Assembly (NCBI GenBank): GCA_945869695.1
Contig: CAMBPV010000001.1
Location: forward strand, 1-64,000
From: Prosthecobacter debontii
GTDB taxonomy: Bacteria > Verrucomicrobiota > Verrucomicrobiia > Verrucomicrobiales > Verrucomicrobiaceae
Direction of reading: 5' to 3'
Length of the DNA: 64,000 nucleotides
Shown: piece by piece, positions 6,934 to 37,980 of the stretch
Position numbering within the stretch: the stretch's first letter is position 1
Layout: every line of letters begins with the position of its first letter
Made by a program: the position numbers and the translations under genes
The notes under the pieces: generated by a model
What the model saw: only the letters and a program-made list of their open reading frames with translations
Databases searched by the model: none
What the model was told of the DNA's origin: nothing

Positions 6934-9900
6934 TTAGACTCGAGTTAATTGCCGTTTCAAAGAGAAGTGAATCACAGCCAGAATGACTGCCAAGGCGAGA
7001 AAGATCACGACGCCATTAATCCACAAAGTGCTGAACACGGTATTGAAATAGGTCTTTACGGTTCCGAAGAAAACATTCGGACTCACCCGGCGACGATAGT
7101 CTTCACGCTCCATTTCAGCCTTAGTCACGAGATCCAATACCTTGCGATTGACATAAATTTCCTCTGCACTGGTTCCTTTGCTCTCGGATTGGAGCTCATC
7201 AAGCAACCCTTGCTCCAAAACGCCGCTCCTCACCGCGTTTCGAATCAATCGAAGCTGCCCTGAGATCTCGTCGGGCTTCCGAGACTGGAGCCCCGATATG
7301 ATGGCCAGCGCCTGTTTCGCGAGTTCCAGTTTGTTTCTTTGCTCTGGCGTTAGCTCAACATCCCGAGGGAGACTGACAAGCGCCTGAATTTCGTCCTCAA
7401 GGAAATCTTGGTTCCGAGTGAGAGGATTCAGTTTTGATTGTGAGATTAGGATCGCTTCATAAGACCATCGCAATGGCATGAACTGACACACAAAGGGAAC
7501 ATTCAACTTGCTGGCAGAATCGCCCTCGGGGGTGGTCTTGTCACCGGTCCAGCGTCTGATTGAATACACCAAATCGAGATTTTTGTTCATCTCCTCATAC
7601 TTGATCAGCGCACCGCCCAGAATGATCTGCGGAATGAGCATCAGCGGTATAGTGTTCAGTGCCGTGCGTGAGTCATGAACCAGGCTCGAGACCAAAAGAC
7701 CAAGAAAAACACCCGTCAGCGAGGTCAGGAACATCCACCACAGATGGATGGCAAACATTTCTCGAACCTCGAGGATGTAGTTTCCGATCAGAAGGTAAAT
7801 CACACACTGGATCAGTGCAAAAGTCCCCAGTGATAGCACTTTCCCAATCAAATAATAAAACGTTCGGAGGTTGTGATTCCGCTCCCGACTCAAGGTGTGA
7901 CGATCTCGAATGATCTCGTCGGCGCTATTGGTCAAGCCGAGGAACATGGATACCACCAAGCTCATGAAGAGATAGGTGGGAATGTGGAAGGCTGAGGCAA
8001 AGGTGTAGCGATCCTCCTCTGAATAGCGCAACACGGTCGCAATCAGCACGGCGAGCATCGGTGCCTCCAAGAGAGTCGTCAGCAAATTGGCACGATTCCT
8101 TAATTTACTGAGGAATGCACGCTTCACCAGAGTGCTGAAAAGGATACCCTCCTCCCGAATGGTGTGCTGAGGTGCCTTCGGGGCCTTTCGCGAGGCTACA
8201 CTCCCGGCTGCCAGAGCAGTCTCATCCCGACTTTTTTTGGGCTCACCCGATCCCACTCGATCCATCGACTCCATGACGATGTGATTCTGATAGCGGTCTC
8301 GCCAAAAGTTCGGAGGGAAGCGTCTTGCCGCCACGAGGTGACCGTCCGCACTTTTTTCCTGGATAACATCACCACTGATATCCCTGAGCGGCGTTTCCAT
8401 CACATCAAAGACGTAGTCAGGCGTGAGTCCGTCAGGCATCGGGCCGATCTCGGTGCTCGGCCCCGTCTCCTCGTTATACGCATTCCAGAAATACTCCAAC
8501 ATGCCCTGCGGCGTGCCGAAGTACACCATCTTCCCGCCCTTATCGAGAAGGAGTGCTTTATCGAACATCTGCAACAACCTGACGCTTGGCTGATGAATGG
8601 AAGCGAAGACAATCTTATTCCTCGCAAGGGAGCGGATGATCTCTAATACATGCTCCGAGTCCTTCGAGGACAGGCCCGATGTTGGCTCGTCAAAAAGATA
8701 GACATCGGAGATGCCGATCATGTCCAGTCCAGCATTCAGACGCTTCCGCTCGCCACCGCTCAAAAATTTCTGCTGGGGTGTGCCAGCCAAGCGTTTCCTG
8801 AGTTCCGATAGCCCTAACTCCGAGAGCTTTGCATCCACCCGTTTCCTCCGATCCTCCACTCGAAGGTGAGGGCAACGCACAGCCACTGAGAAATCCAGAT
8901 TTTCATCGACCCGCAGCAGTGGATCGAAAGCATCCTCCTGCGGAATGTAGGCGATGTAGGAGCTGAGGCTCTCGATGTTTGAATAGAGCGCCAAACCATT
9001 CATCAGCACCTCACCGCTTTTGGGTTTGAGTTGTCCTCCCAAAACGCGCAGCAGGGTGCTTTTTCCACACCCACTCGGACCCATCACACAAATCATCTCC
9101 CCACGCCGAGCCGTGAGACTAATGCCATCCAATGCCGTGTCTCGGCTATCGAATCGGTGAGCTGCTTCTTTAAGCTCGATCTGACGGATGACATTCCGCT
9201 CTTCTTCAATGATGCGGTCGGAAAAGTGGCATCGCAGAAACTGCCCATCATTCAGGGTGATGGTGTCGCCGTCACTGAGGAGGCATCGATCACGCACCGG
9301 CAGGTTATCCACGAGAATCACTCTCGGTGAACGAAGGACTTCCAGTGCTCCCGTTTTTTGAGCATACTGACATTCAATCCGAAGAAGAATTTCCCCCTCG
9401 GTTTCCTGGGAGAGCAAAATGTCCCCTTCCTCCAGCAGATCGGGATTATTGGAGACGAGATAAGTATTCCGACTGCCTTCGAGGCGAAACTGCCCTCCAA
9501 ACTCGCGCGCACGACGGCGCAGATCACGAAGAGAAATTTCAACCTCTCCCTTCGCCACGATGCTATCTTCGATAGAAGCATCGATGATCACGCCATCCTT
9601 CAGTTTTTGGCCACCGAGAGTTGCATCCGTATCTCGCAGGGCTTCGATCGTTACCCCCAAGCCGAAACTGATGCGCAGATTGGTGCCACGTGCCCTTTGC
9701 TCACTGATCTCTGCATTGCCACCATCCGTTAGTGTGAGATAAAGCTGCGTGCCCGTCAGCGTGCGTTTTGCATTGAAATAGGAGACGAGATCCCCGTAGT
9801 CCAGCGTGACGTCATCGAGGACGACTCGTTCACCTTGATACAGTCTCGAAAAATCACCCGGGGGCTGACGACGGCTTCTGACCAAAATGGGCACACTCCC

Positions 9901-10587
9901 CGTGTTCTTCAGGAGCACCAAGTTTTGGTAACGGAACGCAATCACGGAGCAATTGCCCGAAATGGAGCGAAGCAGCACATCACAGGGCTTGCTCGATGCA
10001 ATTCGAATGGTCTCGAGGGGCTGGGTACCCTTTCCGATGAAGGGATCATCTTTCGAAAACTCGTTTCCCGCATTCAGCTGATAAACAATATCGATCGCTT
10101 GGGCGGCGATGCCCAAATTCGTCATGAAGAGGTAATACTCTACCATTTGACGACGGTTTGACTGCGCATGAGAGATCAGCAGGTAGAGCTGCACACCGAG
10201 CAGGATTTTCTGATCTTCACTCAAGGTGCGCGCCAACTCCTTGGCCCTGCGAGTCAGATCCTGCTCTTGGTTCAGGGCCTCAGCGTAAAGTCTCCGTAAC
10301 TCCGAGTAAATCGCCTCCGGATAATCGTAGCGTAAGTATCCCAGGCTGGAGTCAATTTCCTCGCCATCCACCTCACCGTCCAATTTGCTAAATCCCGCAA
10401 AGACCTCGATCAGCACCGGCAACATCGTGTTTTTGGTCTTTCCTTCCAACCTCTTTCCCGAAGTGCCACTCACCCATTTTTGCCAGAGTGCCCGCACAAT
10501 CCCGCCAGCCTGCGCAGCCTTGGAGGCAGACGTAACCCCGGATGAATCGGAAAGCTTGTTTGGCGGGGTGGAGTCCGGAGAGGTCAT
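6934..10587 (-). CDS. TerB-like/ABCG-type ABC transporter fusion (1217 aa)
   Basis: A large ATPase-permease fusion. Residues about 1-200 form an alpha-helical region with an acidic SKLDGEVDGEEI stretch reminiscent of TerB/DjlA-type domains. A beta-rich region (about 200-480), possibly FHA-like, follows. The ATPase domain has Walker A GPSGCGKS (503-510, Lys509), the signature LSGGERKR (609-616) and Walker B YLFDEPTSGL (Asp633/Glu634). A His switch is visible in FASIHQPS. The domain order (ATPase then about six membrane segments from residue 830 on) and GERKR are typical of ABCG/White transporters, which are rare in bacteria except in cyanobacteria, Bacteroidetes and PVC groups. Family members usually export lipids or hydrophobic compounds; the substrate here is unknown. 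It appears to head an operon with an amidase. Confidence 0.85.
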   Translation of the reverse strand: MTSPDSTPPNKLSDSSGVTSASKAAQAGGIVRALWQKWVSGTSGKRLEGKTKNTMLPVLIEVFAGFSKLDGEVDGEEIDSSLGYLRYDYPEAIYSELRRLYAEALNQEQDLTRRAKELARTLSEDQKILLGVQLYLLISHAQSNRRQMVEYYLFMTNLGIAAQAIDIVYQLNAGNEFSKDDPFIGKGTQPLETIRIASSKPCDVLLRSISGNCSVIAFRYQNLVLLKNTGSVPILVRSRRQPPGDFSRLYQGERVVLDDVTLDYGDLVSYFNAKRTLTGTQLYLTLTDGGNAEISEQRARGTNLRISFGLGVTIEALRDTDATLGGQKLKDGVIIDASIEDSIVAKGEVEISLRDLRRRAREFGGQFRLEGSRNTYLVSNNPDLLEEGDILLSQETEGEILLRIECQYAQKTGALEVLRSPRVILVDNLPVRDRCLLSDGDTITLNDGQFLRCHFSDRIIEEERNVIRQIELKEAAHRFDSRDTALDGISLTARRGEMICVMGPSGCGKSTLLRVLGGQLKPKSGEVLMNGLALYSNIESLSSYIAYIPQEDAFDPLLRVDENLDFSVAVRCPHLRVEDRRKRVDAKLSELGLSELRKRLAGTPQQKFLSGGERKRLNAGLDMIGISDVYLFDEPTSGLSSKDSEHVLEIIRSLARNKIVFASIHQPSVRLLQMFDKALLLDKGGKMVYFGTPQGMLEYFWNAYNEETGPSTEIGPMPDGLTPDYVFDVMETPLRDISGDVIQEKSADGHLVAARRFPPNFWRDRYQNHIVMESMDRVGSGEPKKSRDETALAAGSVASRKAPKAPQHTIREEGILFSTLVKRAFLSKLRNRANLLTTLLEAPMLAVLIATVLRYSEEDRYTFASAFHIPTYLFMSLVVSMFLGLTNSADEIIRDRHTLSRERNHNLRTFYYLIGKVLSLGTFALIQCVIYLLIGNYILEVREMFAIHLWWMFLTSLTGVFLGLLVSSLVHDSRTALNTIPLMLIPQIILGGALIKYEEMNKNLDLVYSIRRWTGDKTTPEGDSASKLNVPFVCQFMPLRWSYEAILISQSKLNPLTRNQDFLEDEIQALVSLPRDVELTPEQRNKLELAKQALAIISGLQSRKPDEISGQLRLIRNAVRSGVLEQGLLDELQSESKGTSAEEIYVNRKVLDLVTKAEMEREDYRRRVSPNVFFGTVKTYFNTVFSTLWINGVVIFLALAVILAVIHFSLKRQLTRV

Positions 10588-10741
10588 CAATCAGCGGGAG
10601 ATCACGAAGGGGGATTATGGAACGATGAAGGTCAAAAACAACCCGTCCGTCGTCGATCTTCCGACCGAGTGCAATCATTTCGGATCAGTGAATGAAACCT
10701 CGGCACTTAGTCGGGACAATTTTTGTGGCAATTACTCTAAA

Positions 10742-14144: not shown

Positions 14145-14179
14145 AAGGCCGGACTTCCAACGAAGTCCGGCCTTTTTTT
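14145..14179 (+). terminator. Rho-independent terminator after gapA
   Basis: A 12-bp stem AAGGCCGGACTT (14145-14156) / AAGTCCGGCCTT (14163-14174) followed by a T-run to 14179. Confidence 0.93.
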
Positions 14180-14365
14180 GCGCACCTGATTAGGCCGAAA
14201 ACAGACAACACACGCCTTCTCGGCAAGTTTAGATTCCAATGATTAAAACCACATTAAACATGAATTCTCCTTAACAATAAAAGCAATTTAATCTAATATT
14301 TATGGTTTTGCATTGATTTATTTCAAATTAGAGATTCATTATCGAGTCTTTTCGTATTTTTGATA
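14180..14365. other. AT-rich leader upstream of the copper/heme unit
   Basis: About 185 bases with markedly higher A+T than the flanking genes. It must contain the promoter of the MbnP-MbnH fusion gene, but I cannot assign -35/-10 hexamers with confidence. No riboswitch or tRNA is recognisable. Confidence 0.4.
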
Positions 14366-16192
14366 ATGAAAATCTCAGCCTCGCGGCGCCAATCTCTATT
14401 TATGTGTAGATCGAGGGCGATCTCTCTCGTGATTTTCGTCGTCACATGGGTCGCTGCGAATTCGAACGCACTTGAGGTTGGACACAGAGACATCGCAATC
14501 GAGATCAAAGCCACATGGGCAGCGAAGCCTCTAGCCCTGAGTCAGGACGTGGAGACGGACGACATGAAGGTCAAGGTCACGCGGATCGATTACCTTCTGA
14601 GCCACGCCTCCCTGAAACGAAAAGATGGCTATTGGTTGCAAACCAGAGACTGGTTTGCCTCATTCAAGCACTCAGCCGGAAGGGACACAGCCCTGATCTT
14701 TGGCGTCCCTGCCGAGGAGTTCACGGCCATCCGATTTGCAGTGGGAGTAGACCCCGAAACGAATCGCTCAGATCCCCATCTCCGAGCACCCGAACATCCG
14801 CTAAATCCTGAAGTCAACGGCCTCCATTGGGGCTGGCAGGGTGGCTACATTTTCATGGCCCTCGAAGGCCACTACACCTCAAAAAGTGGGAATGATGGTG
14901 CCTACTCCCTCCATTTGGCAAATGATCCACACCTGGTGTGGGTCGAGGTGCCTTTGAAACTGCCACCAGCAGGTGTCGGCACGATCCATCTGACTCTCGA
15001 CCTCGAGCAGGTGTTCCACGGCAAAAACAAGATCAACCTCACTCAAGGTGAAAACTCGACCCACTCCCGTGAGGGTGACCCACTGGCACCCAAGTTAGCT
15101 GCAAACCTCCAGAATGCCTTCCGCCTGAAAACTCTTTCGGCTGATCAATTCCAATCTCCTTCAAAGGCCCCTGCGCTGAAGAATCGACTATCCTCCCCTT
15201 ATCCATTATCGATCTCTGCTCGATTTCCAAAAGTTCAGCTTCCTCCAGACAACTTTCCGACCATCGACGGCGTCGCCCTCGGGGAAAGACTCTTTCATGA
15301 GACGAATCTGTCCAAAACCAACAAACAATCCTGCGCCAGCTGCCACGACTCCAGCGCCGCATTTGCAGACCCGGGAAAAAGATTCAGCACCGGAGCCGAG
15401 GGCCAGATCGGATTCAGAAATGCGATGCCGCTTTTCAATCTTCTCTGGGAGAAGGAATTCTTTTGGGATGGCCGGGTTTCGGGCTTGAGGAATCAAGTCC
15501 TGAAGCCAGTTCAAGATCCGCACGAGATGAATGAGACCTTGGAGCGGGTTATCGGAAAACTGAACAGCAAGAAGGGTTATGCGGAGCGATTCGAAAAGAC
15601 ATTCGGCGACCCAAAGATCACGACTGAGCGAATCAGTCTCGCCCTCGAGCAATACCTGCACTCGCTGATCTCACAAGACTCCAAGTTTGACCGAGCCGCA
15701 CTCAATCAAACGACTCTCACGCCCTCTGAAGCAAGAGGACTGCAACTTTTTGTGACGGAAAGTGACCCCAAGCGAGGACTCAAAGGTGCCGACTGTTTTC
15801 ATTGCCATGGAGGCATGCTCTTTACCAATCATGAGTTCCACAATAATGGGCTCAAACTTGCAACTCATGACATCGGTCGCATGACGGTGACTCGATCTCC
15901 GGCGGATAAGGGAAAGTTCAAGACCCCATCCCTGAGAAACATTGCACTCACCGCGCCCTACATGCATGACGGTCGTTTTGAGACGCTCGAAGAGGTGGTC
16001 GAGCACTACGATCATGGCGTGGTCTCCACCGATACTCTGGATCCCAATCTCGCGAAACACCCGACTCAAGGCTTGGGACTCACCTCCGAAGACAAGGCCG
16101 ACCTCGTGGCCTTTCTACGCACCCTGACGGATCCGAAATACAACGAGCAGCGCCCCACTCTTTCTCAAACGGCACCCAAGACAGAACCATGA
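14366..16192 (+). CDS. MbnP-like copper protein fused to MbnH-like di-heme cytochrome c peroxidase
   Basis: 608 residues from the ATG at 14366 (an in-frame TTG lies 6 bases earlier). A signal anchor (about 15-35) leads into an MbnP-family domain (about 36-255) with the family pattern RIDYLLSHASL, an IRFAVGVDPETN segment, and LHWGWQGGYIFMALEGHY with Trp155 and Trp157. Residues about 280-600 are a MauG/CcpA/MbnH-type di-heme domain. Its two heme motifs are CASCH (323-327) and CFHCH (477-481), a FFWDGR motif carries the conserved inter-heme Trp367, and TAPYMHDGRF lies near the end. In methanotrophs MbnH and MbnP are separate proteins, and MbnH uses H2O2 to turn a Trp of MbnP into kynurenine, which creates a copper site. 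Here enzyme and substrate domain are one chain. The stop overlaps the next ATG (ATGA), so it is coupled to a copper-radical oxidase gene. Confidence 0.85.
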   Translation: MKISASRRQSLFMCRSRAISLVIFVVTWVAANSNALEVGHRDIAIEIKATWAAKPLALSQDVETDDMKVKVTRIDYLLSHASLKRKDGYWLQTRDWFASFKHSAGRDTALIFGVPAEEFTAIRFAVGVDPETNRSDPHLRAPEHPLNPEVNGLHWGWQGGYIFMALEGHYTSKSGNDGAYSLHLANDPHLVWVEVPLKLPPAGVGTIHLTLDLEQVFHGKNKINLTQGENSTHSREGDPLAPKLAANLQNAFRLKTLSADQFQSPSKAPALKNRLSSPYPLSISARFPKVQLPPDNFPTIDGVALGERLFHETNLSKTNKQSCASCHDSSAAFADPGKRFSTGAEGQIGFRNAMPLFNLLWEKEFFWDGRVSGLRNQVLKPVQDPHEMNETLERVIGKLNSKKGYAERFEKTFGDPKITTERISLALEQYLHSLISQDSKFDRAALNQTTLTPSEARGLQLFVTESDPKRGLKGADCFHCHGGMLFTNHEFHNNGLKLATHDIGRMTVTRSPADKGKFKTPSLRNIALTAPYMHDGRFETLEEVVEHYDHGVVSTDTLDPNLAKHPTQGLGLTSEDKADLVAFLRTLTDPKYNEQRPTLSQTAPKTEP

Positions 16193-19100
16193 AAATCCTA
16201 CTCAATCAACTTCCGCTAGCCACCCTTTTGCTATCGCTGATCACCTCCGATATGAGGGGAGAAGTAGGGCATGCAGCAGATGATGAATTGGCCCTCGCCG
16301 CCGCCCAGATCGCATCGAGGTCCACTCCCGGGGCCGCCGCTGCTTCGGGCACGACGGCAACTTTGGCCGCTGCCGTCGATCCCGCAGACTGCATTAACTC
16401 CGGGGCCTGGGGACCCGTGATCAACTGGACCCCGCACATCCCCGTATCGGCAGCTAACTTACCAGATGGTCGCATTCTCACTTTTGCCTCAAATCAAAGG
16501 ACCTCCTTCCCCGTCGGCCCTGAATTCACTTTCGCCGCCACTTGGAACCCCGCGACCGGTGTTTTCCAGGAGGTCAATCACCCGTCTCATGACATGTTTT
16601 GCGGAGGGATCACACTCATGCCCGATGGCAGAGTGATGGTGAACGGTGGTCGCAATTCAACCCCCTTTACCAGTGTCTTCGACTGGCGAAACAACAGCTG
16701 GACACGACTGCAAAACATGACTGGTGGACGCTGGTACAACACATCCGTTTCCATGCCCAATGGTCACGTATTCACAGCGACCGGTGACGGCACTGGCATC
16801 AATACCACCGAAAGATGGAGCCCCAGTGGTTGGACCCTTCTCACCGGTATGCCATGGCCCGCCATCCTGGGTTCCGACGCTGGCTACTTCAAGCACTGGC
16901 ACCCCTTCATGAGCGTAGGTCCCGATGGCCGAGTGCTCCACTTTGGTCCTACGGATACGATGCATTGGTTTACGACCGATGGCACTGGGAGCTTTGTCAA
17001 TGCTGGGACGGCAGTTCCGGGAACCCATTACCCTAAGGAAGGCTGCTTTGCCATGTATGACGAGGGGAAAGTCTTGGTGGCAGGGGGATCAATCAACACC
17101 AATTCCAGCCCGATCGATGGAAGTATCGGGATCAGCACCTCAGCAGCCTACATCGTGGACATGACGACAAACCCACCCAGGGCAACGGTCACCGGTTCGA
17201 TGGCTTTTCCCCGTCAATTCGCAAACGCCGTCGTTCTGCCGAGCGGAGAAGTGCTGGTCATGGGTGGAAACAGCCCCGGCGTAAAGTTCAGCGACCAAGG
17301 CTCCATCCTGCCGTGTGAAATTTGGAACCCCCGCACGGGAACATGGCGCACGGTGGCCAGCATCACCGTGCCTCGGAACTATCACAGCATCTCACTTTTG
17401 CTCGCAGATGGACGTGTGATGGCGGCCGGAGGTGGACTCGGAGGAGCGGATCACCGCGATGCTCAGCTTTACACACCGCCCTGTCTTTTCACAGCCACAG
17501 GCACCGCCGTCACACGCCCCGTTTTGACTTCCGCACCGAGCGTGGTTGCTCCGGGCTCAGTGTTTAACGTCGTCGGCACGCCTGGTTTGGCCAAATTTGC
17601 CCTCATTCGCATGGCATCACTCACTCACTCGGTCAACACGGATCAACGTTATCTCTCCGTCCCGTTTACCGAGACCACCGCCGGAAACTATCAACTCACC
17701 ACACACACCAATGCCAACGTTCTATTGCCTGGCTATTGGATGCTCTTTGGGATCAATGCGACGGGTGCCCACTCGATATCCCAGATCATGCATGTCAATG
17801 CCGCAGCGGGAGTCACACTCATCAATCCGGGAAACCAAACATCCAATGTAGGAACTCCCTCATCCCTCCCGATCAACGCGACTGCCCCAACGGGGACAAC
17901 CCTAGTCTACAGCGCCTCCGGCTTACCCGCTGGACTCAGTATGAATGCAGCATCGGGGCTGATCTCTGGGACTCCCACGACCAGCGGCATCTTCAATGTA
18001 ACAATCACCGCTAATGGAGGGGGATTGACATCGACGCAAAACTTCACGTGGACGACCTTGCTCATCAATACTGGCTCTGGCACCATCCTCCGAGAATGGT
18101 GGACCGGAATCAACGGTGGTGTTCTTGTCAGTGATCTCACCAGCAGCGCATCCTACCCAAACAGCCCCGCGGGCAGTAATCAGCTCACTTCTTTTGAGAC
18201 GCCTACGGATTGGGCCGACAACATGGGTCAGCGCGTCCGCGGATACATTCATCCACCCGTCACCGGGCAGTACCGATTTTGGATTGCCTCCAACGATGAG
18301 GGACAACTCAGACTCTCCACCAACCGAGACCCAGCCAATTCAACTTTGATCGCCGGAGTTCCCCAGTGGAGCGGCCCCAGAGAATGGAACAAGTTTCCTC
18401 AGCAAACATCCAGTCTCATCACTCTCCAAGCAGGCCAGTCCTACTATGTCGAGGCCCTGATGAAAGAAGGCGCAGGTGCTGACAATCTCGCGATCGCCTG
18501 GGCCACTCCCGGCAGCAGCACTCCGGTTGTCATTGCAGGACAATATCTTTCACCTTGGGTGAACAATAGTCCTCCGCTGCTCACCAATCCCGGCAATCGA
18601 GTTCACGTCATCGGATCACCCGTGAACGTGAATGTGATCGCCACGGATGCGAACAATGATCCCCTTTCCTATAGCGCCAGCGCATTGCCGACGGGACTGA
18701 GTATCAACACGAACACTGGCATCATCACAGGCACACCAACTGCGACAGGCACATTCAACAGCACCGTGAGGGTGACAGATGGCCGCAGCCCTGTGGTCTC
18801 GGCCACTTTTGTTTGGACCATCAATCTCATCGTGAATCTCAACCCACCCATCGCATCCCCACCGAGCACGACGGGTGTCGCCCTAAACTACACTTCTGGC
18901 AGCACCGGAGGCGCCAATGTGCGATACAAATGGAGCTGGGGCGACGGCACAGCGGACACGGCCTTCAGCAGCAATCCTGCTGCCACACACACCTTCGCTT
19001 CCCCGGGCCGCTACCAAATCACGATCACCGCCACCGATGATTCAGGTCGCATCACGACCTCCACATTCTACCAGGGCATTCATGCGCCTCTGTCGACCCT

Positions 19101-22100
19101 GCGCCCGACTTCCTCCAGCAGCATTGCCTTCGAAGACAGACCTGCTGGCACGAATGATCGCGTCTGGTGCGTGAATCCGGACAATGACAGCGTGGCAGTC
19201 TTCGATGCCGTTACTCGGGCGCGAGCCGCCGAGATCAATGTGGGCACCGCACCTCGCGCTCTTGCAATTGCACCCGACGGTCGTGTCTGGGTCTCCAATG
19301 TTGAAAGCAGCACCATCAGCATCATCAACCCATCCACACTGACAGTTGTTCAGACTCTCACCCTCGCTCGCGCGGCACGTCCATTCGGCATCGCTTTCGA
19401 TCCCGACGGAACCGATGGGTGGGTGGCCTGTGAAGGGACAGGACTTCTGCTTCGGATGAATCCAACCACTGGAACCCAATCCGCCAGCCTCAATGTGGGT
19501 CTCAATGCAAGACACCTTTCGGTCACCGCCAATAGTTCCCGAGTGCTGGTGTCACGGTTTATCACGCCTCCTTTACCCGGCGAAAGCACAGCCACCATCA
19601 ACAACACGGACCAAACCGGAGGCGAGGTGATCAGCGTGCTCACCAGCACACTTGCCATCGAGAAAACAACCATTCTCACCCACAGCACCCGCGCAGACTC
19701 GATCACAACCGGCCGAGGCATTCCAAACTACCTTGGCCCTGCAGTGATCTCACCCGATGGACTGACGGCGTGGGTTCCCTCGAAACAAGACAACATCAAA
19801 CGCGGCATGCTGAGAGATGGCTCTCAACTCACGCACGATCAGACGGTTCGCAGTGTCGCTAGCCGAATCGTCATCACAGGCGGCATTGCAGCCAACACAG
19901 ACGATATGCTTGGCCGAGTTGATTTTGACAATGCGGGTATCGCTAGCAATGGAACCTTTGAACGAACGGGCCTCTACTTTTTCACGGCACTCGAGGGCAG
20001 CCGGGAAATCGGAGTGGTGGATGTCTGGGGCAAAAAGGAGATCAAACGCTTTTCGGCGGGGCGCGCCCCACAGGCTGTCGTCACCTCTCCCGATGGCCGC
20101 ACTGTTTATGCTCATAACTTCATGGACCGCACGATCACCGTGCATGATGTCGGCCCGTTGTTGGATGGGGCTGATGCAACCCCCACTCTGACGGCCACAT
20201 TGAACTGCGTCACCACTGAGCGCTTATCCGCCCCCGTTCTACTCGGGAAACAGCATTTCTACGACGCAACAGACTCCCGAATCGCATTCCAACAATACAT
20301 CTCCTGCGCCTCCTGTCACAATGACGGCGCTCAAGATGGGCGCACTTGGGACTTCACCGGATTTGGTGAAGGACTCCGGAACACGATCACGCTGCGCGGT
20401 CACGGCGGCACCGCACACGGCCCCCTTCATTGGACGGGAAACTTCGATGAAGTGCAGGACTTTGAGAATCAAATTCGAAATCTCAATCTCGGCACCGGTC
20501 TGATCAGCGGCGGAAATCCCCATCCCCCGATGGGCACCGCCAATGCCGGTCGCAGCGCTGATCTCGATGCACTCGCCGCTTATGTGACCTCCCTTAGCTC
20601 ACAAGACATCAGTCCATTCCGCAGCACAAATGGCACGCTCACGACGGCCGCAGTTGCAGGTAAATCGGTCTTCGAGAACACAAATTGTGCCCAGTGTCAC
20701 TCCGGCCCTGCATTTACCAATAGCTCTCCCAATGTGGCGGCCAATATCGGCACGATCAAACCGACCACCGGCAATCGGCTCGGCACCTCGCTCACGGGAT
20801 TAGACGTTCCGACGTTACGCGGCCTCTGGGCGACAGGGCCCTATCTTCACGATGGTTCCGCCGCGACGCTGGCTGCAGCCGTTCAGGCCCATCAAGGCGT
20901 GAACTTAAATGCAACCGATCTGAGTAATCTCGTTTCCTACCTCCAGCAGATCGATGGCGGAGAAGTGTCAGCTCCCGTTTTGGCCGCACCGGCCATTACG
21001 CTCACAGGTCCGACCTCGGCACCCGGCGCTTTTGATGTGACCCTTAGTTCAACGCAAATCGTCACAGGCCTCACAGCCAGTGAATTTGTGCTGTCCAATG
21101 GCTCAGCCACGGCACTCAATGGATCAGGGGCGAGTTATACGCTGAGAATCACGCCAACCACTCCAGGGCCAGTTTCCGTCTCCCTTCCAGCAGGACGTTG
21201 CTTCAATGTGGCAAACATCGGCAACATCGCCTCAAACTCTTTGAGCATCACTTTAGTGAGCGGCGCACTGGTCCTCACGAGCTCAGATGTCGGACCCGTC
21301 ATCGTTCCCGGAACCACGTCTGCCAGCAACGGCACTTACACTCTGACTGCCGCGGGTGAAGACATCTACTTCAATGAAGACGGACTCCGTTTTGCCTTCC
21401 AGCAAGTCACTGGCGACGGAGAAATCATTGCGCGTGTCACCAGCCAGACTTTGACCAATGAGTGGGCCAAAGCAGGTGTCATGATTCGCGAAAACCTATC
21501 AGGGGGATCACGCCATGTCACCGCGTTCACGACACCCATTGCGGCTGGAAACGGTTTCGGAATGGTGTGGAGACCCACAGCTAACGCCGCGACGGACTAT
21601 GCGCGCGGCCCGAATCTGAATGCTGCCCCAAATAATTGGGTCAGGCTGGTGCGCGCGGGAACGACGATTACTGCCTATGCTTCAGCCAATGGCACATCAT
21701 GGACAGAGATTAGCTCTGCCACACTCGCCGCCCTGCCGAGCTCTGTTTACTTCGGGCTAGCCCTTTCAGCTGGGGACAATTACTCAGGAGCAGTCGGCAC
21801 CGGGACGTTTGATAACGTCAGCATCAATGGCGCACTCAACCCCACGCCGCCATCAGTGACTCTTGTGGCTTCACCGACGACGGTCAGCGGAGCCTTCACG
21901 GTTACCGCGACGTTCACCCAGAATATCACGGGTCTGAGTTCATCCGATTTCATCATTACCAATGGCACCGCATCCGCCATCTCGGGGAGCGGCACCCAAT
22001 ACTCGGTCACCATCACACCAAACGTTGCAGGAGCTGTTTCAATCACTCTCCCCGCAGGTTCTGTCACCAATGCAGCAGGTCTCGGAAACATCGCTTCCAA

Positions 22101-24009
22101 TACGATGAACGTAACGTTCAGCCCTCCAGTATCTGGTGCTCTCACGGGAGTCGATGTCGGTCGCGTATTGGTCCCCGGTTCCACGAGCCTGAGCCCTGCG
22201 AGTGGGCTCTATACCATCACTGCCTCGGGTGACGACATCTTTTTCAATGCCGACGGTTTCCATTTTGCCCAAACTCGAATCACCGGAGACGGAGAAATCC
22301 GAGCCCGCGTGACTGGCCAGACAAACACGAATGATTGGGCCAAAGCAGGCATCATGATGCGAGAAACGCTGACTGCCGGATCCCGCCACTCCACGGTCTT
22401 CACAACCCCCGCAACAACGGGGAACGGCTTCGGCATCGTTTCCCGCACGATAATCGACGGAACCACTTCATACCAAGGTCCTCGACCCATGAGTGCGCCG
22501 CCCAATAACTGGGTAAGACTGGTGAGGTCAGGAAACACACTGACCGGTTTTGTATCCTCAAATGGCACCACCTGGACACAATTAGGCACAACGACTTTCA
22601 GTGCCCTTGCTCCCACTCTGCACTTTGGGCTCGTGGTCACTGCGACGGATGACTACGCCTCAACCACCTCCACTTCAACTTTCGACAACGTTCAGATCAC
22701 CGGAGCTCCAGGTGCTGCCATGGCCTCCCGCTCCTCCACACGACTCCCCACCCCAGCTTCGGTCACCTCCGCAGATCCGAGCCTCCGACTGGGATCCACG
22801 GGAGATTCGGCACTCAGCCTTTCGTTCACAAGATCCACCTCTGCAGACACTCGATACGAATTACAGCTCTTGTCTGACCTTTCGAAGTCACCCTCAGGTT
22901 GGAGACGCGCCGGCACTGAGCCGACGATCACCCCAGGCGCGGCAGGTGGGCAGACCCTTTCCTATTCGGATTTTTCAAAGGAATTTGCGGGTTCTAATCA
23001 AGGCTTTGCTCGCCTCCACATTGAACAAGACACGAACGACGACGGATTCGCGGAAACCGAGAGAAACGGAGAGGTCTTCGGTTTCACCCGAACTCTCTAC
23101 CCCGTCGGAACCGCAACCGCAGGCAATCCATTTGCGGCTCCCTCACAGGGTTCGGGAGTGATTGCATCCGTTGGCACTCACTCGTTCACGCTCGATAACA
23201 CCTTGTCGCTTCCGAGCGGCAAAGCTTGCTATGCAGAGGTGATCAAAGGCAAATATGCGGGACATCGATTCGAAATTGACGAATCCGCCAGCCGTGGACG
23301 CACGATCAGTTTAGAGTCTAGGGCAGCCCAAAGCACCTTGAATGCTCTGCCAACAGATCTCAGAGGTGACAGTGTCGAGATCAGGCCACATCGCACCGTT
23401 TCCGAACTCTTCCCAGAAAGCCGTTTCACGGGCGCAACAAACATGGATTCCGCAGACCGACTTCTCTTTCACAACGGAAATAGCTTCGAAACACTTTGGC
23501 TTCACAAAAGCTCCAATGGCAGCCCGCGATGGGTCAAAGAAGGGGATATCACTCTGTCGAGCGCAGGTTCCCGGATCATTGGCGTCACGGAAGGTCTTTT
23601 GATCCAAATTCGCAACACCCCCGTTAGCCTCACCTTCAGTGGCATCGTCCGACAAAACGCCGTGGCACTCCCCCTCAAAACCGGAGCTCAACTGGTTGCC
23701 AATGTCTGGCCCGCAGGCATGTCCCCCAATTCCCTGGGTCTCACAGTTGCCAACGGCTTCGTGGGGAGTCAGAATCCAGCGAGTTCTGACCAAGTCCATG
23801 TTTGGTTGGGCGATACTAAAGTCGGCGCATCGGGCTATCTCACCCATTACCTTTTGAGGTCAACCACCCTTCACCAATGGACAACCACCGGTGACGCGGC
23901 TCTTGCGAGTCAAAACGAATCGACTCTCCTCCCCATCATGCGGGCAGCATTCATCAAAAGCACCACCGATAAGCCAATTTTCCTCTCCCCCTTATCCTGG
24001 GCGCCTTAA
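16189..24009 (+). CDS. Giant secreted copper-radical oxidase/PA14/propeller/c-heme multidomain protein (2606 aa)
   Basis: A signal peptide is followed by a kelch-type galactose/glyoxal-oxidase domain (about 50-540). All copper-radical ligands seem present: HDMFC (Cys138) and RWYNTS (Tyr183) for the thioether pair, NYHS (Tyr398, His399), and LTHSVNTDQR (His480). The Trp that stacks on the cofactor in galactose oxidase is not evident. Next come a putative Ig module (542-615), PA14 (631-790), a second Ig (796-865), PKD (885-954), and a YVTN-like propeller (991-1337). Two c-heme motifs follow, CASCH (1373-1377) and CAQCH (1500-1504), with a peroxidase-like LRGLWATGPYLHDGS. Then there are three Ig/laminin-like modules, two of which (1691-1884 and about 1982-2175) are close internal repeats. 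The end resembles a verrucomicrobial conserved C-terminal domain. The oxidase would make H2O2 beside a heme domain. It overlaps the MbnP-MbnH gene by 4 bases. Confidence 0.85.
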   Translation: MKILLNQLPLATLLLSLITSDMRGEVGHAADDELALAAAQIASRSTPGAAAASGTTATLAAAVDPADCINSGAWGPVINWTPHIPVSAANLPDGRILTFASNQRTSFPVGPEFTFAATWNPATGVFQEVNHPSHDMFCGGITLMPDGRVMVNGGRNSTPFTSVFDWRNNSWTRLQNMTGGRWYNTSVSMPNGHVFTATGDGTGINTTERWSPSGWTLLTGMPWPAILGSDAGYFKHWHPFMSVGPDGRVLHFGPTDTMHWFTTDGTGSFVNAGTAVPGTHYPKEGCFAMYDEGKVLVAGGSINTNSSPIDGSIGISTSAAYIVDMTTNPPRATVTGSMAFPRQFANAVVLPSGEVLVMGGNSPGVKFSDQGSILPCEIWNPRTGTWRTVASITVPRNYHSISLLLADGRVMAAGGGLGGADHRDAQLYTPPCLFTATGTAVTRPVLTSAPSVVAPGSVFNVVGTPGLAKFALIRMASLTHSVNTDQRYLSVPFTETTAGNYQLTTHTNANVLLPGYWMLFGINATGAHSISQIMHVNAAAGVTLINPGNQTSNVGTPSSLPINATAPTGTTLVYSASGLPAGLSMNAASGLISGTPTTSGIFNVTITANGGGLTSTQNFTWTTLLINTGSGTILREWWTGINGGVLVSDLTSSASYPNSPAGSNQLTSFETPTDWADNMGQRVRGYIHPPVTGQYRFWIASNDEGQLRLSTNRDPANSTLIAGVPQWSGPREWNKFPQQTSSLITLQAGQSYYVEALMKEGAGADNLAIAWATPGSSTPVVIAGQYLSPWVNNSPPLLTNPGNRVHVIGSPVNVNVIATDANNDPLSYSASALPTGLSINTNTGIITGTPTATGTFNSTVRVTDGRSPVVSATFVWTINLIVNLNPPIASPPSTTGVALNYTSGSTGGANVRYKWSWGDGTADTAFSSNPAATHTFASPGRYQITITATDDSGRITTSTFYQGIHAPLSTLRPTSSSSIAFEDRPAGTNDRVWCVNPDNDSVAVFDAVTRARAAEINVGTAPRALAIAPDGRVWVSNVESSTISIINPSTLTVVQTLTLARAARPFGIAFDPDGTDGWVACEGTGLLLRMNPTTGTQSASLNVGLNARHLSVTANSSRVLVSRFITPPLPGESTATINNTDQTGGEVISVLTSTLAIEKTTILTHSTRADSITTGRGIPNYLGPAVISPDGLTAWVPSKQDNIKRGMLRDGSQLTHDQTVRSVASRIVITGGIAANTDDMLGRVDFDNAGIASNGTFERTGLYFFTALEGSREIGVVDVWGKKEIKRFSAGRAPQAVVTSPDGRTVYAHNFMDRTITVHDVGPLLDGADATPTLTATLNCVTTERLSAPVLLGKQHFYDATDSRIAFQQYISCASCHNDGAQDGRTWDFTGFGEGLRNTITLRGHGGTAHGPLHWTGNFDEVQDFENQIRNLNLGTGLISGGNPHPPMGTANAGRSADLDALAAYVTSLSSQDISPFRSTNGTLTTAAVAGKSVFENTNCAQCHSGPAFTNSSPNVAANIGTIKPTTGNRLGTSLTGLDVPTLRGLWATGPYLHDGSAATLAAAVQAHQGVNLNATDLSNLVSYLQQIDGGEVSAPVLAAPAITLTGPTSAPGAFDVTLSSTQIVTGLTASEFVLSNGSATALNGSGASYTLRITPTTPGPVSVSLPAGRCFNVANIGNIASNSLSITLVSGALVLTSSDVGPVIVPGTTSASNGTYTLTAAGEDIYFNEDGLRFAFQQVTGDGEIIARVTSQTLTNEWAKAGVMIRENLSGGSRHVTAFTTPIAAGNGFGMVWRPTANAATDYARGPNLNAAPNNWVRLVRAGTTITAYASANGTSWTEISSATLAALPSSVYFGLALSAGDNYSGAVGTGTFDNVSINGALNPTPPSVTLVASPTTVSGAFTVTATFTQNITGLSSSDFIITNGTASAISGSGTQYSVTITPNVAGAVSITLPAGSVTNAAGLGNIASNTMNVTFSPPVSGALTGVDVGRVLVPGSTSLSPASGLYTITASGDDIFFNADGFHFAQTRITGDGEIRARVTGQTNTNDWAKAGIMMRETLTAGSRHSTVFTTPATTGNGFGIVSRTIIDGTTSYQGPRPMSAPPNNWVRLVRSGNTLTGFVSSNGTTWTQLGTTTFSALAPTLHFGLVVTATDDYASTTSTSTFDNVQITGAPGAAMASRSSTRLPTPASVTSADPSLRLGSTGDSALSLSFTRSTSADTRYELQLLSDLSKSPSGWRRAGTEPTITPGAAGGQTLSYSDFSKEFAGSNQGFARLHIEQDTNDDGFAETERNGEVFGFTRTLYPVGTATAGNPFAAPSQGSGVIASVGTHSFTLDNTLSLPSGKACYAEVIKGKYAGHRFEIDESASRGRTISLESRAAQSTLNALPTDLRGDSVEIRPHRTVSELFPESRFTGATNMDSADRLLFHNGNSFETLWLHKSSNGSPRWVKEGDITLSSAGSRIIGVTEGLLIQIRNTPVSLTFSGIVRQNAVALPLKTGAQLVANVWPAGMSPNSLGLTVANGFVGSQNPASSDQVHVWLGDTKVGASGYLTHYLLRSTTLHQWTTTGDAALASQNESTLLPIMRAAFIKSTTDKPIFLSPLSWAP
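21259..22715 (+). repeat. Internal duplication of a laminin-like module in the 2606-aa protein
   Basis: Two copies, 21259-21840 and 22132-22715, each encode about 195 residues. They share DVG...VLVPG or VIVPG, a TGDGEI-I/R-ARVT core, WAKAG-x-M-x-RE, and an NNWVRLVR segment. Ig-like linkers separate them. The copies differ at many positions, so the duplication is old. Confidence 0.85.
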
Positions 24010-31616: not shown

Positions 31617-32489
31617 TCAAGGCACCGGCTCACCCGAGCCGGGATAGACCCACCGCACAACCTTCCCATCGCGAATGTGAGCCTGAGCGTGGGCTTCCAT
31701 CGGTCCGCAGAAAACAATGGTGTCATAGTGCACATCGATCACCCAGGTGGGTCTGCCTTCGGTCGTTACCAATTGTGGAGTCCCCATTCGCTTCACCTTC
31801 TTCGGCGTGATGTCGGTGACGTCCCCCGCATTCATACTGGCCAAGAGAATAGGATAACTGCCATTCCCAGCCCTCACGGGCTTGCCACTTTCATCGATCG
31901 CACCCGCGGGCACTTCAACACCGACCGCATTCGGTTTGGTCTGCTGATTTTTCTCCCACTGTTGCCTCAAGGTCTCCACCCGCCACGCCACCCACTTTTG
32001 GTAAGGCTCCGCAAACTGCGACTTCAGATCCGTTTCACTGACGCGCACGTAGCCCCGAGCAGTCGAAGTAGGCACTGGAGCCAGCGTCACGACACCGTTT
32101 TCGCATCCCAGCGCCGTTACCATTCCACCCGCCGCCATCCGCGAGAAACCCGCAGACATCTTGAATTCGACATCCCGCATTAACTTCACCACCCGTGGAA
32201 ACGCTGACAGCGGAATGACCGTCCAGTTCTTCGTCAAGACCTCCAAAGACTCAATCGCGGGCGGCTCAAACTTCGGCGCGCTTGCCCTCGCGACCTCGGT
32301 GTTGACCGGGGCAGTCAATTGACCTCCCAAGGAACCTTGCTTCTCGACAATACCCTTCTCCGCAGCATCACCTCGAATCCCATCAGGCCCCCTTTCGAAG
32401 ACCATCCTTTGCGACTTAGGTGCACCCAAATAGTCGTAGGCCAAAAATGCGATTCCTAAAATTAGCCAGGTGTAAATCAGTGCCTTCAT
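31617..32489 (-). CDS. Membrane-anchored protein of unknown function
   Basis: A 290-residue protein with one N-terminal membrane segment (about residues 5-20) and a soluble, probably periplasmic body containing QQWEKNQQTKPN and a C-terminal HYDTIVFCGPMEAHAQAHIRDGKVVRWVYPGSGEPVP. No family recognised. Its ATG overlaps the stop of the ceramidase/PVC fusion gene as ATGA, so the two are translationally coupled and likely work together. It converges on the RidA-family gene with 5 bases between stops. Confidence 0.7.
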   Translation of the reverse strand: MKALIYTWLILGIAFLAYDYLGAPKSQRMVFERGPDGIRGDAAEKGIVEKQGSLGGQLTAPVNTEVARASAPKFEPPAIESLEVLTKNWTVIPLSAFPRVVKLMRDVEFKMSAGFSRMAAGGMVTALGCENGVVTLAPVPTSTARGYVRVSETDLKSQFAEPYQKWVAWRVETLRQQWEKNQQTKPNAVGVEVPAGAIDESGKPVRAGNGSYPILLASMNAGDVTDITPKKVKRMGTPQLVTTEGRPTWVIDVHYDTIVFCGPMEAHAQAHIRDGKVVRWVYPGSGEPVP

Positions 32490-35400
32490 TTCAACCCCGG
32501 ACTTTGCAGATAGGCGATCAAATCCGCAAACGATTGCGGTGTCATCGCCGCCTCAAGGCCTTCGGGCATCAAGGATGTTCCCGCACTCTTCAAAGAGGCC
32601 ACATCACTGCGCAGCACCGACTTCGTCACATTCCCCGCCATCTTCAGCGTCAGGCTCGCGCTCGTTTCGGTGGCGATGACACCGTAGAGCTGCTCGCCGC
32701 TCTTCAGGGTGCAGTGGTAGGCCATGAAGCCGGGCTCGATGATCGCGCTGGGGTCGAGAATGGAGTTGAGGAGCTTTTCGGCGTCGTGCTGCGCCACGCT
32801 GCGCAGATCCGGGCCGAGTTCGAGGCCCACGCCGTCGAGTTTGTGGCAACTGATGCACACACTCGCGAAAACGGTCTTCCCGCGTGTCGCATCGCCTCGG
32901 AGCTTCAACGCCGGTTTGAACTTCTCCACCACCGCGGTGCGCGAAGCGCTCGTGGAGTCAGCGAAGACCTTCTCCGCCAGGTCGGCGATGTTTTTCTTCG
33001 GATGCTTCATCAACCGCGCCCGCATCGCCGCGTCCGCGGATTTGGCTTCGGGACGTTTCAGCAGCGCCAGCGTCCAGGCGTCGTTCGAGAGAAGCGTTTC
33101 GAGGATCTGCACGCGCAGCGCCGGTGTGCGCTGGTCCCAGCCTTCGAGCAAAAACTGCTCGCCACCCTGAGGTTGCAGCTTCGAGACGAGCCGCAGCACC
33201 TCCGCGTTGCCCGTCTTCGCCCATAGCTCCGGCAATAGTGCTTTGACGCGTTCCCGATGCTCGCGATCCGAGGCCAGCAAGGTCAGCGATTCCATCGTCG
33301 GAGCCGTTTGGATCGACTCCGCGGCCTGTTGCAGCCTCGCGGCCATTTGATCGACCGCCGCCCGTGCCTTCGCATCCGTGACCTGTTTCGCGAAAGCGGC
33401 CAGAGAGAGGTTTTTCTCATCCAAGACGGTCAGCAGCTCCTCCAGGCCCTTTTGCGCATCCATCCGCGTCACAAGCGCCGCGATGGCTTTTTCGTTCTTC
33501 GTCGCCAAAGCGCAGCGCAGGAGCATCGCGAAGGATTTGGCATCCGCACGAGCACAAACTCGCTCCAAATGCGGCAGCACCGAACTCAACGCCGCGCCTT
33601 GCAGCGGCGAACCCGGCTCCGCGCTGTTCAGCACCTCCGCGAGCAAATCTCCGGCCCACTCGAACTTCAGCTCGCCAAGCGTGCAGGCCAGTTGAAGGCG
33701 CACCTTGGCATCTTGATCAAGCAGTCGCGCCTCCAGCGCCATTTGGAGCAATCGAACATCATCACCCTTCCAGTCAATCTTCTCAGCCATTTGAAGGGCT
33801 TGCTCGCGAATGTGCCACTGCTCACCGTAGTCATCATTCAAAAGGACAATGCAATCAGAGGCGCTGAGTTTGCCCAATGAAAGAGCAGTCCATGCATCTG
33901 CCATCGTGCCAATACCTGATGCAACTGGGTTAAAAGCTGGAGCCTTGCCATCCCATAACGCCCTCATTTGCGCTTTGTCCCTGCACCAGCCATTCGCGCT
34001 TGCGAAAGTGGCTTCGGCTTTAGCCGAATCATTCGCCCCAGATCGAGCTGAAGCTCGAACTACTTTCCAAATCCGTCCCTTGTCATCCCCTTCGCGGTAA
34101 TGCGGCAGAAGCTCTTCTTTGCCATTCTGCGGCAGCCACTGCGGGTGCTCGATCATGTAGCGATACATATCCGCCACCCACAGTGCGCCGTCGGGGCCGG
34201 TGCGGACCATGACGGGGCGGCACCAGCGGTCTTCGCTGGCGAGGAAGTCCATCTTGGACTCGGCGGGATCGCGTACGGCTTTGAAGGTGACGCCGTCGTC
34301 TTCGAGGAGGTGATGTTGCACGACGTTGTGGAAGGGCTCGCAGGTGAAGGCGTGCGTTTTGCCGTCCTTGAAGAGCTTCACATCGCGATACACCTCGATG
34401 CCGCAGGCGCTGGTGAAGCGTCCGGCCTGGTCGAAGCTGTGGAAGCGCTTCTCCATGCTGCTGGCGGGATACACGGGCGGATTGCGCGGGAAGAGCTGAT
34501 GAATCGGGTCCGGCGGGATGACGTGCGGATTGCGGCGCAGGTAGTGATCCTGCAAAACATAGTGCCAGAGCGGGAAACTGTTCTGCACGCCGAACCAGTG
34601 GCCCCAGTCATCGCGGGCGCGGCCGAACTGCGAGGGGCCGGTCTGCGGATCAAACTCGCCGGTGTCGGGTTTGAAGCGGAAATCGCGGCTGCCGAGGTCG
34701 ATCTTCTCGCCGGTGAGCTTGCACTCGATCTGCGTGCCTTTGTTGTAGCCGCCGTGATGCGCGCCCGCGGCGCAATACACCCAGCCGTCCATGCCCCAGC
34801 GAAGGCCGTTCACGCGGAGCTGCTGATTGCCGGTGCTGAAGCCGGTGTAGAGCACTTTCTTCGTGCAATCGGGCGAAATGAAAAAGATGTCCGGCGCGGC
34901 GGTGACGATGACGCCTTCACGCCAGGTCAAGATGCCGGTGGGATAGCTCAAGTCGCTGACGATGACGTGGCGCTTGTCGTAGCGACCGTCGCTGTCCGTG
35001 TCCTCCAGCCGCACGACGCGTCCGCCAGCCGTGCCATTGCCATCCATGCCGAGCGGGTAGTCCGCCATCTCGATGACCCACAGGCGACCCTGCTCATCCC
35101 AATCAAACGCGACCGGATCGAGCACCACCGGCTCCGCCGCGACGAGTTCGATCCGGTAACCCTCGCGCACATGCCACTTCTTCGCCGACTCTTCCGGCGA
35201 GAGCGGTTGCGAGGCCATTTCGACCTTCGTCGCTGGCGCAGGTGCGGCGGGTTTTTCCAAACCGGCGACCTCCACCTTCTCAAACTCACCTTCCAGCGGC
35301 GCGAAGTCATCGCAGCGTTTGCCAAAGAACAATTCCTTCGCGCCGGGAGCCGTGACGGGCAGTTCGGCGTCGATCTCTACCTTGCCATTGAGTGTCACCT

Positions 35401-37819: not shown

Positions 37820-37926
37820 GAGTGAGAGAGGAACGTTACAGATGTGGTCTTCCTTCCTTTTTGCAGAATGGCTCCCGAAAGAAACTAAAAGAGCCAAAGT
37901 CAGAACTTGAACCGATTTATTCAAAA

Positions 37927-37980
37927 ACGATTTTCCGCCTATAACGCACAAAAATTGGGTTATAGGCTGAAAATCATTTC
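37927..37980. repeat. 54-bp palindromic repeat, copy A (3' side of the ATPase gene)
   Basis: An outer arm of 19 bases ending GCCTATAAC (37927-37945), a 14-base centre, and an inner arm starting TTATAGGCT (37960-37980). The arms are inverted copies of each other. The ATPase stop codon (37974-37976) lies inside it. Copy B at 39417-39470 has the same length and spacing. Confidence 0.85.

Follow-up and report, generated by a model that had tools for sequence, protein, structure and literature searches.

The open reading frame at 14366-16192 on the forward strand of a 64,000-nucleotide stretch of Prosthecobacter debontii DNA (the window) raises the question of whether an enzyme that forms kynurenine and the protein that it modifies can be joined in one polypeptide, and what such a protein would serve. 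In methanotrophs the copper protein MbnP and the di-heme enzyme MbnH are separate. A sequence-only reading of the window had claimed that here they are the N- and C-terminal halves of a single chain, that the modification is intramolecular, and that the fusion is a strong natural argument for the MbnP-MbnH pairing.

The fused gene and its spread

The gene encodes 608 amino acids between an ATG at 14366 and a stop codon that ends at 16192, and a TTG at 14360 is an alternative start that would add two codons. It is set apart from the upstream GAPDH-like gene by an intrinsic terminator on the same strand at about 14147-14181, read directly from the sequence (ggccggactt...aagtccggcctttttt). The first part of the protein (14366-14473) is a predicted signal-peptide-like segment with a helix over residues 8-34, as judged from sequence and model secondary structure, and the protein is probably exported. 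The MbnP domain follows (14477-15139), then a linker modelled with low confidence (15140-15226; 21-44 residues in homologues) and a di-heme domain of the MbnH/MauG type (15242-16150). The Pfam profile for MbnP, PF20243, matches residues 42-229 with 105.9 bits (gathering cut-off 27) and CCP_MauG, PF03150, matches residues 302-447 with 178 bits (cut-off 25.6). The best-scoring NCBIfam model is TIGR04039 (MbnH), with 233.6 bits over residues 293-595, which is below its cut-off of 362.85. Two haem motifs, CASCH (residues 323-327) and CFHCH (477-481), lie in the C-terminal half.

The claim that both domains share one open reading frame is borne out well beyond this locus. Both halves were found in one frame at 103 of the 107 loci examined, one of which (L053) carries a frameshift; the four exceptions are three loci cut by contig ends (L086, L110 and L112) and a broken fragment (L060). 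The same genome holds a second fusion, of 579 amino acids, on contig C217. The 103 fused loci and this second copy rule out a chance read-through or an assembly artefact, and the gene encodes a genuine fusion of MbnP with an MbnH/MauG-type domain.

Fused versions in other Verrucomicrobiota, which the sequence-only reading had proposed to look for, are numerous. Of the 387 Verrucomicrobiota genomes sampled, 22 contain PF20243, with nearly all matches falling in open frames of about 580-810 amino acids (the exceptions are a frameshifted copy in G108 and a fragment in G121), and no separate intact MbnP gene was seen in this sample. GTDB genomes were scanned as well, and of the 352 relatives obtained the best 80 are nearly all labelled Verrucomicrobiota and fused wherever the contig extends far enough; this view rests on the best 80 of 352, and fusions beyond the phylum may exist. 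Separate pairs of MbnP and di-heme genes were observed in Deinococcus, Trichormus and Pseudoalteromonas. When the MbnP half was used in a tblastn search of a plasmid set, the sole match was a distant relative from D. radiodurans, and a scan of viral contigs with D. radiodurans MbnP as query gave no match. Among the loci sampled, the fusion is the usual form of MbnP/MbnH in Verrucomicrobiota and occurs phylum-wide, which extends what had been read from the window.

Relation of the halves to known proteins

The motif LHWGWQGGY with Trp155 and Trp157 is present in the N-terminal half as had been described. Trp155 (codon 14828-14830, forward strand) aligns with the first Trp of the WxW motif in MtMbnP (GMAWNWQ), Trichormus (WWNWR), Pseudoalteromonas (FWTWQ) and Deinococcus (YWAWN), the last three being separate MbnP proteins from three further phyla, and is the predicted kynurenine site. 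In M. trichosporium MbnP this first Trp is reportedly oxidised to kynurenine, with His and Met at the copper. All 89 aligned fusions retain Arg73, His154, Trp155, Glu167, His183 and His233 together with both haem motifs, so the modifiable position expected from separate MbnP proteins is there without exception. Trp157 is kept in 88 of the 89. The remaining one, L059 (13601-15304), has HWDPQQ in place of HWxWQ, so that in this natural variant Pro stands where the second Trp would be while the first is retained; this fits the expectation that only the first Trp is modified.

His183 is common to fusions and canonical MbnP in the alignment. The fusion lacks the four-Cys region of canonical MbnP, to which 7l6g owes its name 'metallo-mystery pair system four-Cys motif protein', and after the signal segment the MbnP half of the window's protein contains no Cys; where canonical MbnP has this region, the fusions carry the invariant His233 (THS). 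Since the four-Cys region is missing, the copper site of the fusion must differ from that of canonical MbnP. His183 and His233 are candidate ligands from the alignment, and by analogy a site of two His and kynurenine, as described for MopE/CorA (PMC3912023), is a reasonable guess. In the structure model of the MbnP half alone (pLDDT 95.2) this half adopts the MbnP fold, and 7l6g is its only significant PDB match (probability 1.00, E 3.5e-8).

For the C-terminal half, the question was whether it groups with MbnH or with classical cytochrome c peroxidases (CcPs). Tyr548 occupies the position of the Tyr ligand in MauG and MbnH, which is Met in CcPs, and Tyr is found there in 88 of the 89 aligned fusions. 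In the tree the fused C-terminal halves form one group among the labelled rows, and the CcPs stand apart with an SH-aLRT of 99; the rows on the MauG/MbnH side have Tyr where CcPs have Met. When the full-length model was compared with known structures (VIA-align), MbnH 6e1c ranked first with a Z of 35.5, ahead of MauG (31.5) and CcPs (at most 31.3), and 7l6g scored 18.2. The tree position, the ligand column and the structural ranking rule out a classical bacterial CcP, in agreement with the earlier proposal. The nearest set in the tree consists of MbnH and the Deinococcus pair (SH-aLRT 85), and the exact sister placement with MbnH rather than with MauG has modest support; the MauG model TIGR03791 scores 169.5 bits, where its cut-off requires 443.85.

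The proposal that a kynurenine-forming enzyme and its substrate are fused stands as regards the Trp and the side of the tree, but not as regards identity with the curated families. The MbnP equivalog model TIGR04052 reaches 39 bits against a cut-off of 140, and with both halves below their NCBIfam equivalog cut-offs and the four-Cys motif missing, the fusions are a divergent branch.

The full-length model (pLDDT 89.3) has a pTM of 0.83, which gives the relative placement of the domains with some confidence, while linker residues 261-269 fall below a pLDDT of 50. About 20 CcP structures align to this model from residues 154-156, that is from the WxW loop, the alignment ranges being given as first and last residues only. 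This starting point suggests, indirectly, that the loop packs against the di-heme domain, where the N-terminal segment of CcPs runs.

The MbnP/MbnH pair of methanotroph methanobactin operons (7l6g, 6e1c; TIGR04052/TIGR04039) shares with the fusion the two domains and the fold of each half, a WxW motif with a conserved first Trp, a Tyr-ligand di-heme enzyme and, in most MbnH compared, a second haem motif of the form C[F/H]HCH. It differs from the fusion in being encoded by two genes, in carrying the four-Cys motif, in the level of the NCBIfam scores, and in its linkage to methanobactin genes, whereas the fusion is linked to genes for copper radical oxidases, YHYH proteins and sulfatases. The pair in Deinococcus radiodurans (L151, an 'MbnP family protein' and a 'cytochrome-c peroxidase') is similar in its MbnP half, in which WAWNSGYIF aligns with HWGWQGGYIF of the fusion, in its CFHCH second haem motif and in its copper context, but is split over two genes, after which CopC/CopD follow. 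MopE/CorA with SACCP/CorB of methanotrophs combines kynurenine at a copper site with a co-transcribed di-heme protein, the site resembling the one guessed for the fusion, but again from separate genes. MauG is a Tyr-ligand di-heme enzyme, like the C-terminal half, and modifies Trp in a protein, as is predicted for the fusion; it differs in being encoded separately, in acting on methylamine dehydrogenase and, for the MauG examined here, in having CAACH as its second haem motif.

Genes beside the fusion

The downstream gene (16189-24009, forward strand), whose start overlaps the end of the fusion by 4 nt (ATGA), encodes a copper radical oxidase of the galactose oxidase type, to which the sequence-only reading had not extended. 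The protein has 2606 amino acids and consists in order of the galactose-oxidase-type domain, Ig/PKD repeats, a YVTN propeller, a two-CxxCH domain and further repeats. Its oxidase domain scores 301 bits against solved galactose oxidases, and the active-site Cys, Tyr, Tyr-His and His motifs are all present (HDMFC, GRWY, YHS and THSVNTDQR, intact). This protein has a CCP_MauG-like haem domain of its own. Where the fusion has its ligand Tyr, it shows His by eye.

The 387 Verrucomicrobiota genomes hold eight PF09118 copper-radical-oxidase domains, and every one lies directly downstream of a fusion (in G000, G187, G190, G199, G215, G234, G240 and G339), a linkage that is new here. With the loci from genome contigs added, about 24 fusions have an oxidase neighbour, frequently with a 4-nt overlap. 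The presence of the oxidase is clustered on the fusion tree: it changes 6 times, compared with 18 times on average when the labels are shuffled. This indicates that the oxidase partner was for the most part inherited together with the fusion and was sometimes lost; L062-L070, inside the oxidase-linked clade, have no oxidase alongside.

Comparison of HMM positions at the 27 fusion loci of the phylum sample placed the oxidase beside 8 and, at 17, a YHYH protein (PF14240) no more than about 4 kb away, leaving 2 with neither. By sequence motifs about half of the fusion loci have neither within 4.5 kb, an undercount owing to short loci and divergent motifs; the YHYH tally in particular is too low, as the HMM search finds more. 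Sulfatases, GSDH, PQQ-propeller and cupredoxin-bearing proteins also occur beside fusions. At three loci (L036, L050 and L059) a YHYH domain and a sulfatase are joined in one protein upstream of the fusion, and the second fusion, on C217, has an upstream sulfatase gene with a 4-nt overlap and a partial YHYH match (L007:1475-2764, G000:C217:957-1175). Elsewhere in the window, on the reverse strand, 32489-37951 encodes an 1821-amino-acid protein with DUF7133, alkaline-ceramidase-like and cytochrome c domains, and 6934-10590 a 1218-amino-acid ABC-transporter-like protein that has, by eye, a long FHA-like N-terminal part and adjoins an FtsH-like gene.

What the fusion may do

The most probable reading, at roughly 0.6, is that the fusion is an exported, self-maturing Cu(I) protein that would serve the exported enzyme encoded next to it. 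Peroxide would activate the C-terminal di-heme domain, as with MbnH and MauG, and the activated domain would convert Trp155 in the MbnP domain joined to it into kynurenine. The kynurenine would complete a copper site with conserved histidines, possibly His183 and His233, and the copper-charged domain would then handle copper for its neighbour, here the oxidase at 16189-24009. That the Trp and haem sites are invariant while the neighbours differ points to a conserved reaction on the attached domain, and the identity of the neighbours suggests that its product serves copper-dependent or otherwise exported enzymes. CopC and CopD behind the Deinococcus pair agree with this reading; the missing four-Cys region, the scores below the NCBIfam cut-offs, the modest tree support for MbnH as sister, the loci with neither an oxidase nor a YHYH protein nearby and the oxidase-free L062-L070 weigh against it. 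The modification would probably occur within one chain; a dimer could act in trans, and for that reason intramolecular modification had been overstated.

The copper radical oxidase gene lies strictly downstream of the fusion, and the substrate of MauG is a separate protein; these facts could instead mean that the di-heme domain modifies or serves the neighbour (oxidase, YHYH protein or sulfatase), the MbnP domain being a targeting or copper-donor arm. We consider this unlikely: the neighbours vary (GSDH and cupredoxin-bearing proteins among them) while Trp155 is invariant in every context, and the Tyr-Cys cofactor of galactose oxidase forms without a helper enzyme. The H2O2 expected from a copper radical oxidase also invites a view of the C-terminal half as an ordinary peroxidase clearing it, next to an unmodified MbnP half acting as a plain copper chaperone; membership of PF03150 agrees with this, as does the neighbour's own CCP_MauG-like haem domain. 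An ordinary peroxidase would, however, sit poorly with a Tyr where CcPs have their Met ligand, with the distance from CcPs in the tree, with the invariant first Trp of WxW, and with a fusion partner from exactly the known substrate family of MbnH, and is improbable to a similar degree. Least probable, and very unlikely in our judgement, is an MbnP half devoid of kynurenine chemistry in which Trp155 is retained solely for folding. The loss of the four-Cys region and the low TIGR04052 score would allow it, but the 89/89 invariance of Trp155, the equally invariant candidate His ligands, the intact haem sites and the conservation of the position across phyla speak against it.

Within the preferred reading of a self-maturing Cu(I) protein, a more specific version is tentative, and we hold it to be possible though doubtful. 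The fusion could be a dedicated copper-loading module, in which the oxidase makes H2O2, the di-heme domain forms kynurenine with this H2O2, and the Cu(I) site so completed supplies copper to the oxidase, or to the YHYH proteins at other loci. If so, these YHYH proteins would be copper proteins, the copper site would be peroxide-switched, and bacterial galactose-oxidase-type enzymes would, to our knowledge for the first time, have a metallochaperone assigned to them.

The fusion adds support to the MbnP-MbnH pairing, but is not the key argument for it, as the pairing has reportedly already been shown by experiment. It offers a single-chain system outside methanotrophs, with a fixed 1:1 ratio, for studying kynurenine formation, and L059 is a natural variant without the second Trp. 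Since every copper radical oxidase sampled in Verrucomicrobiota adjoins a fusion, the MbnP/MbnH pair gains a concrete candidate client, and the fusion neighbourhood is a first lead for the YHYH proteins.
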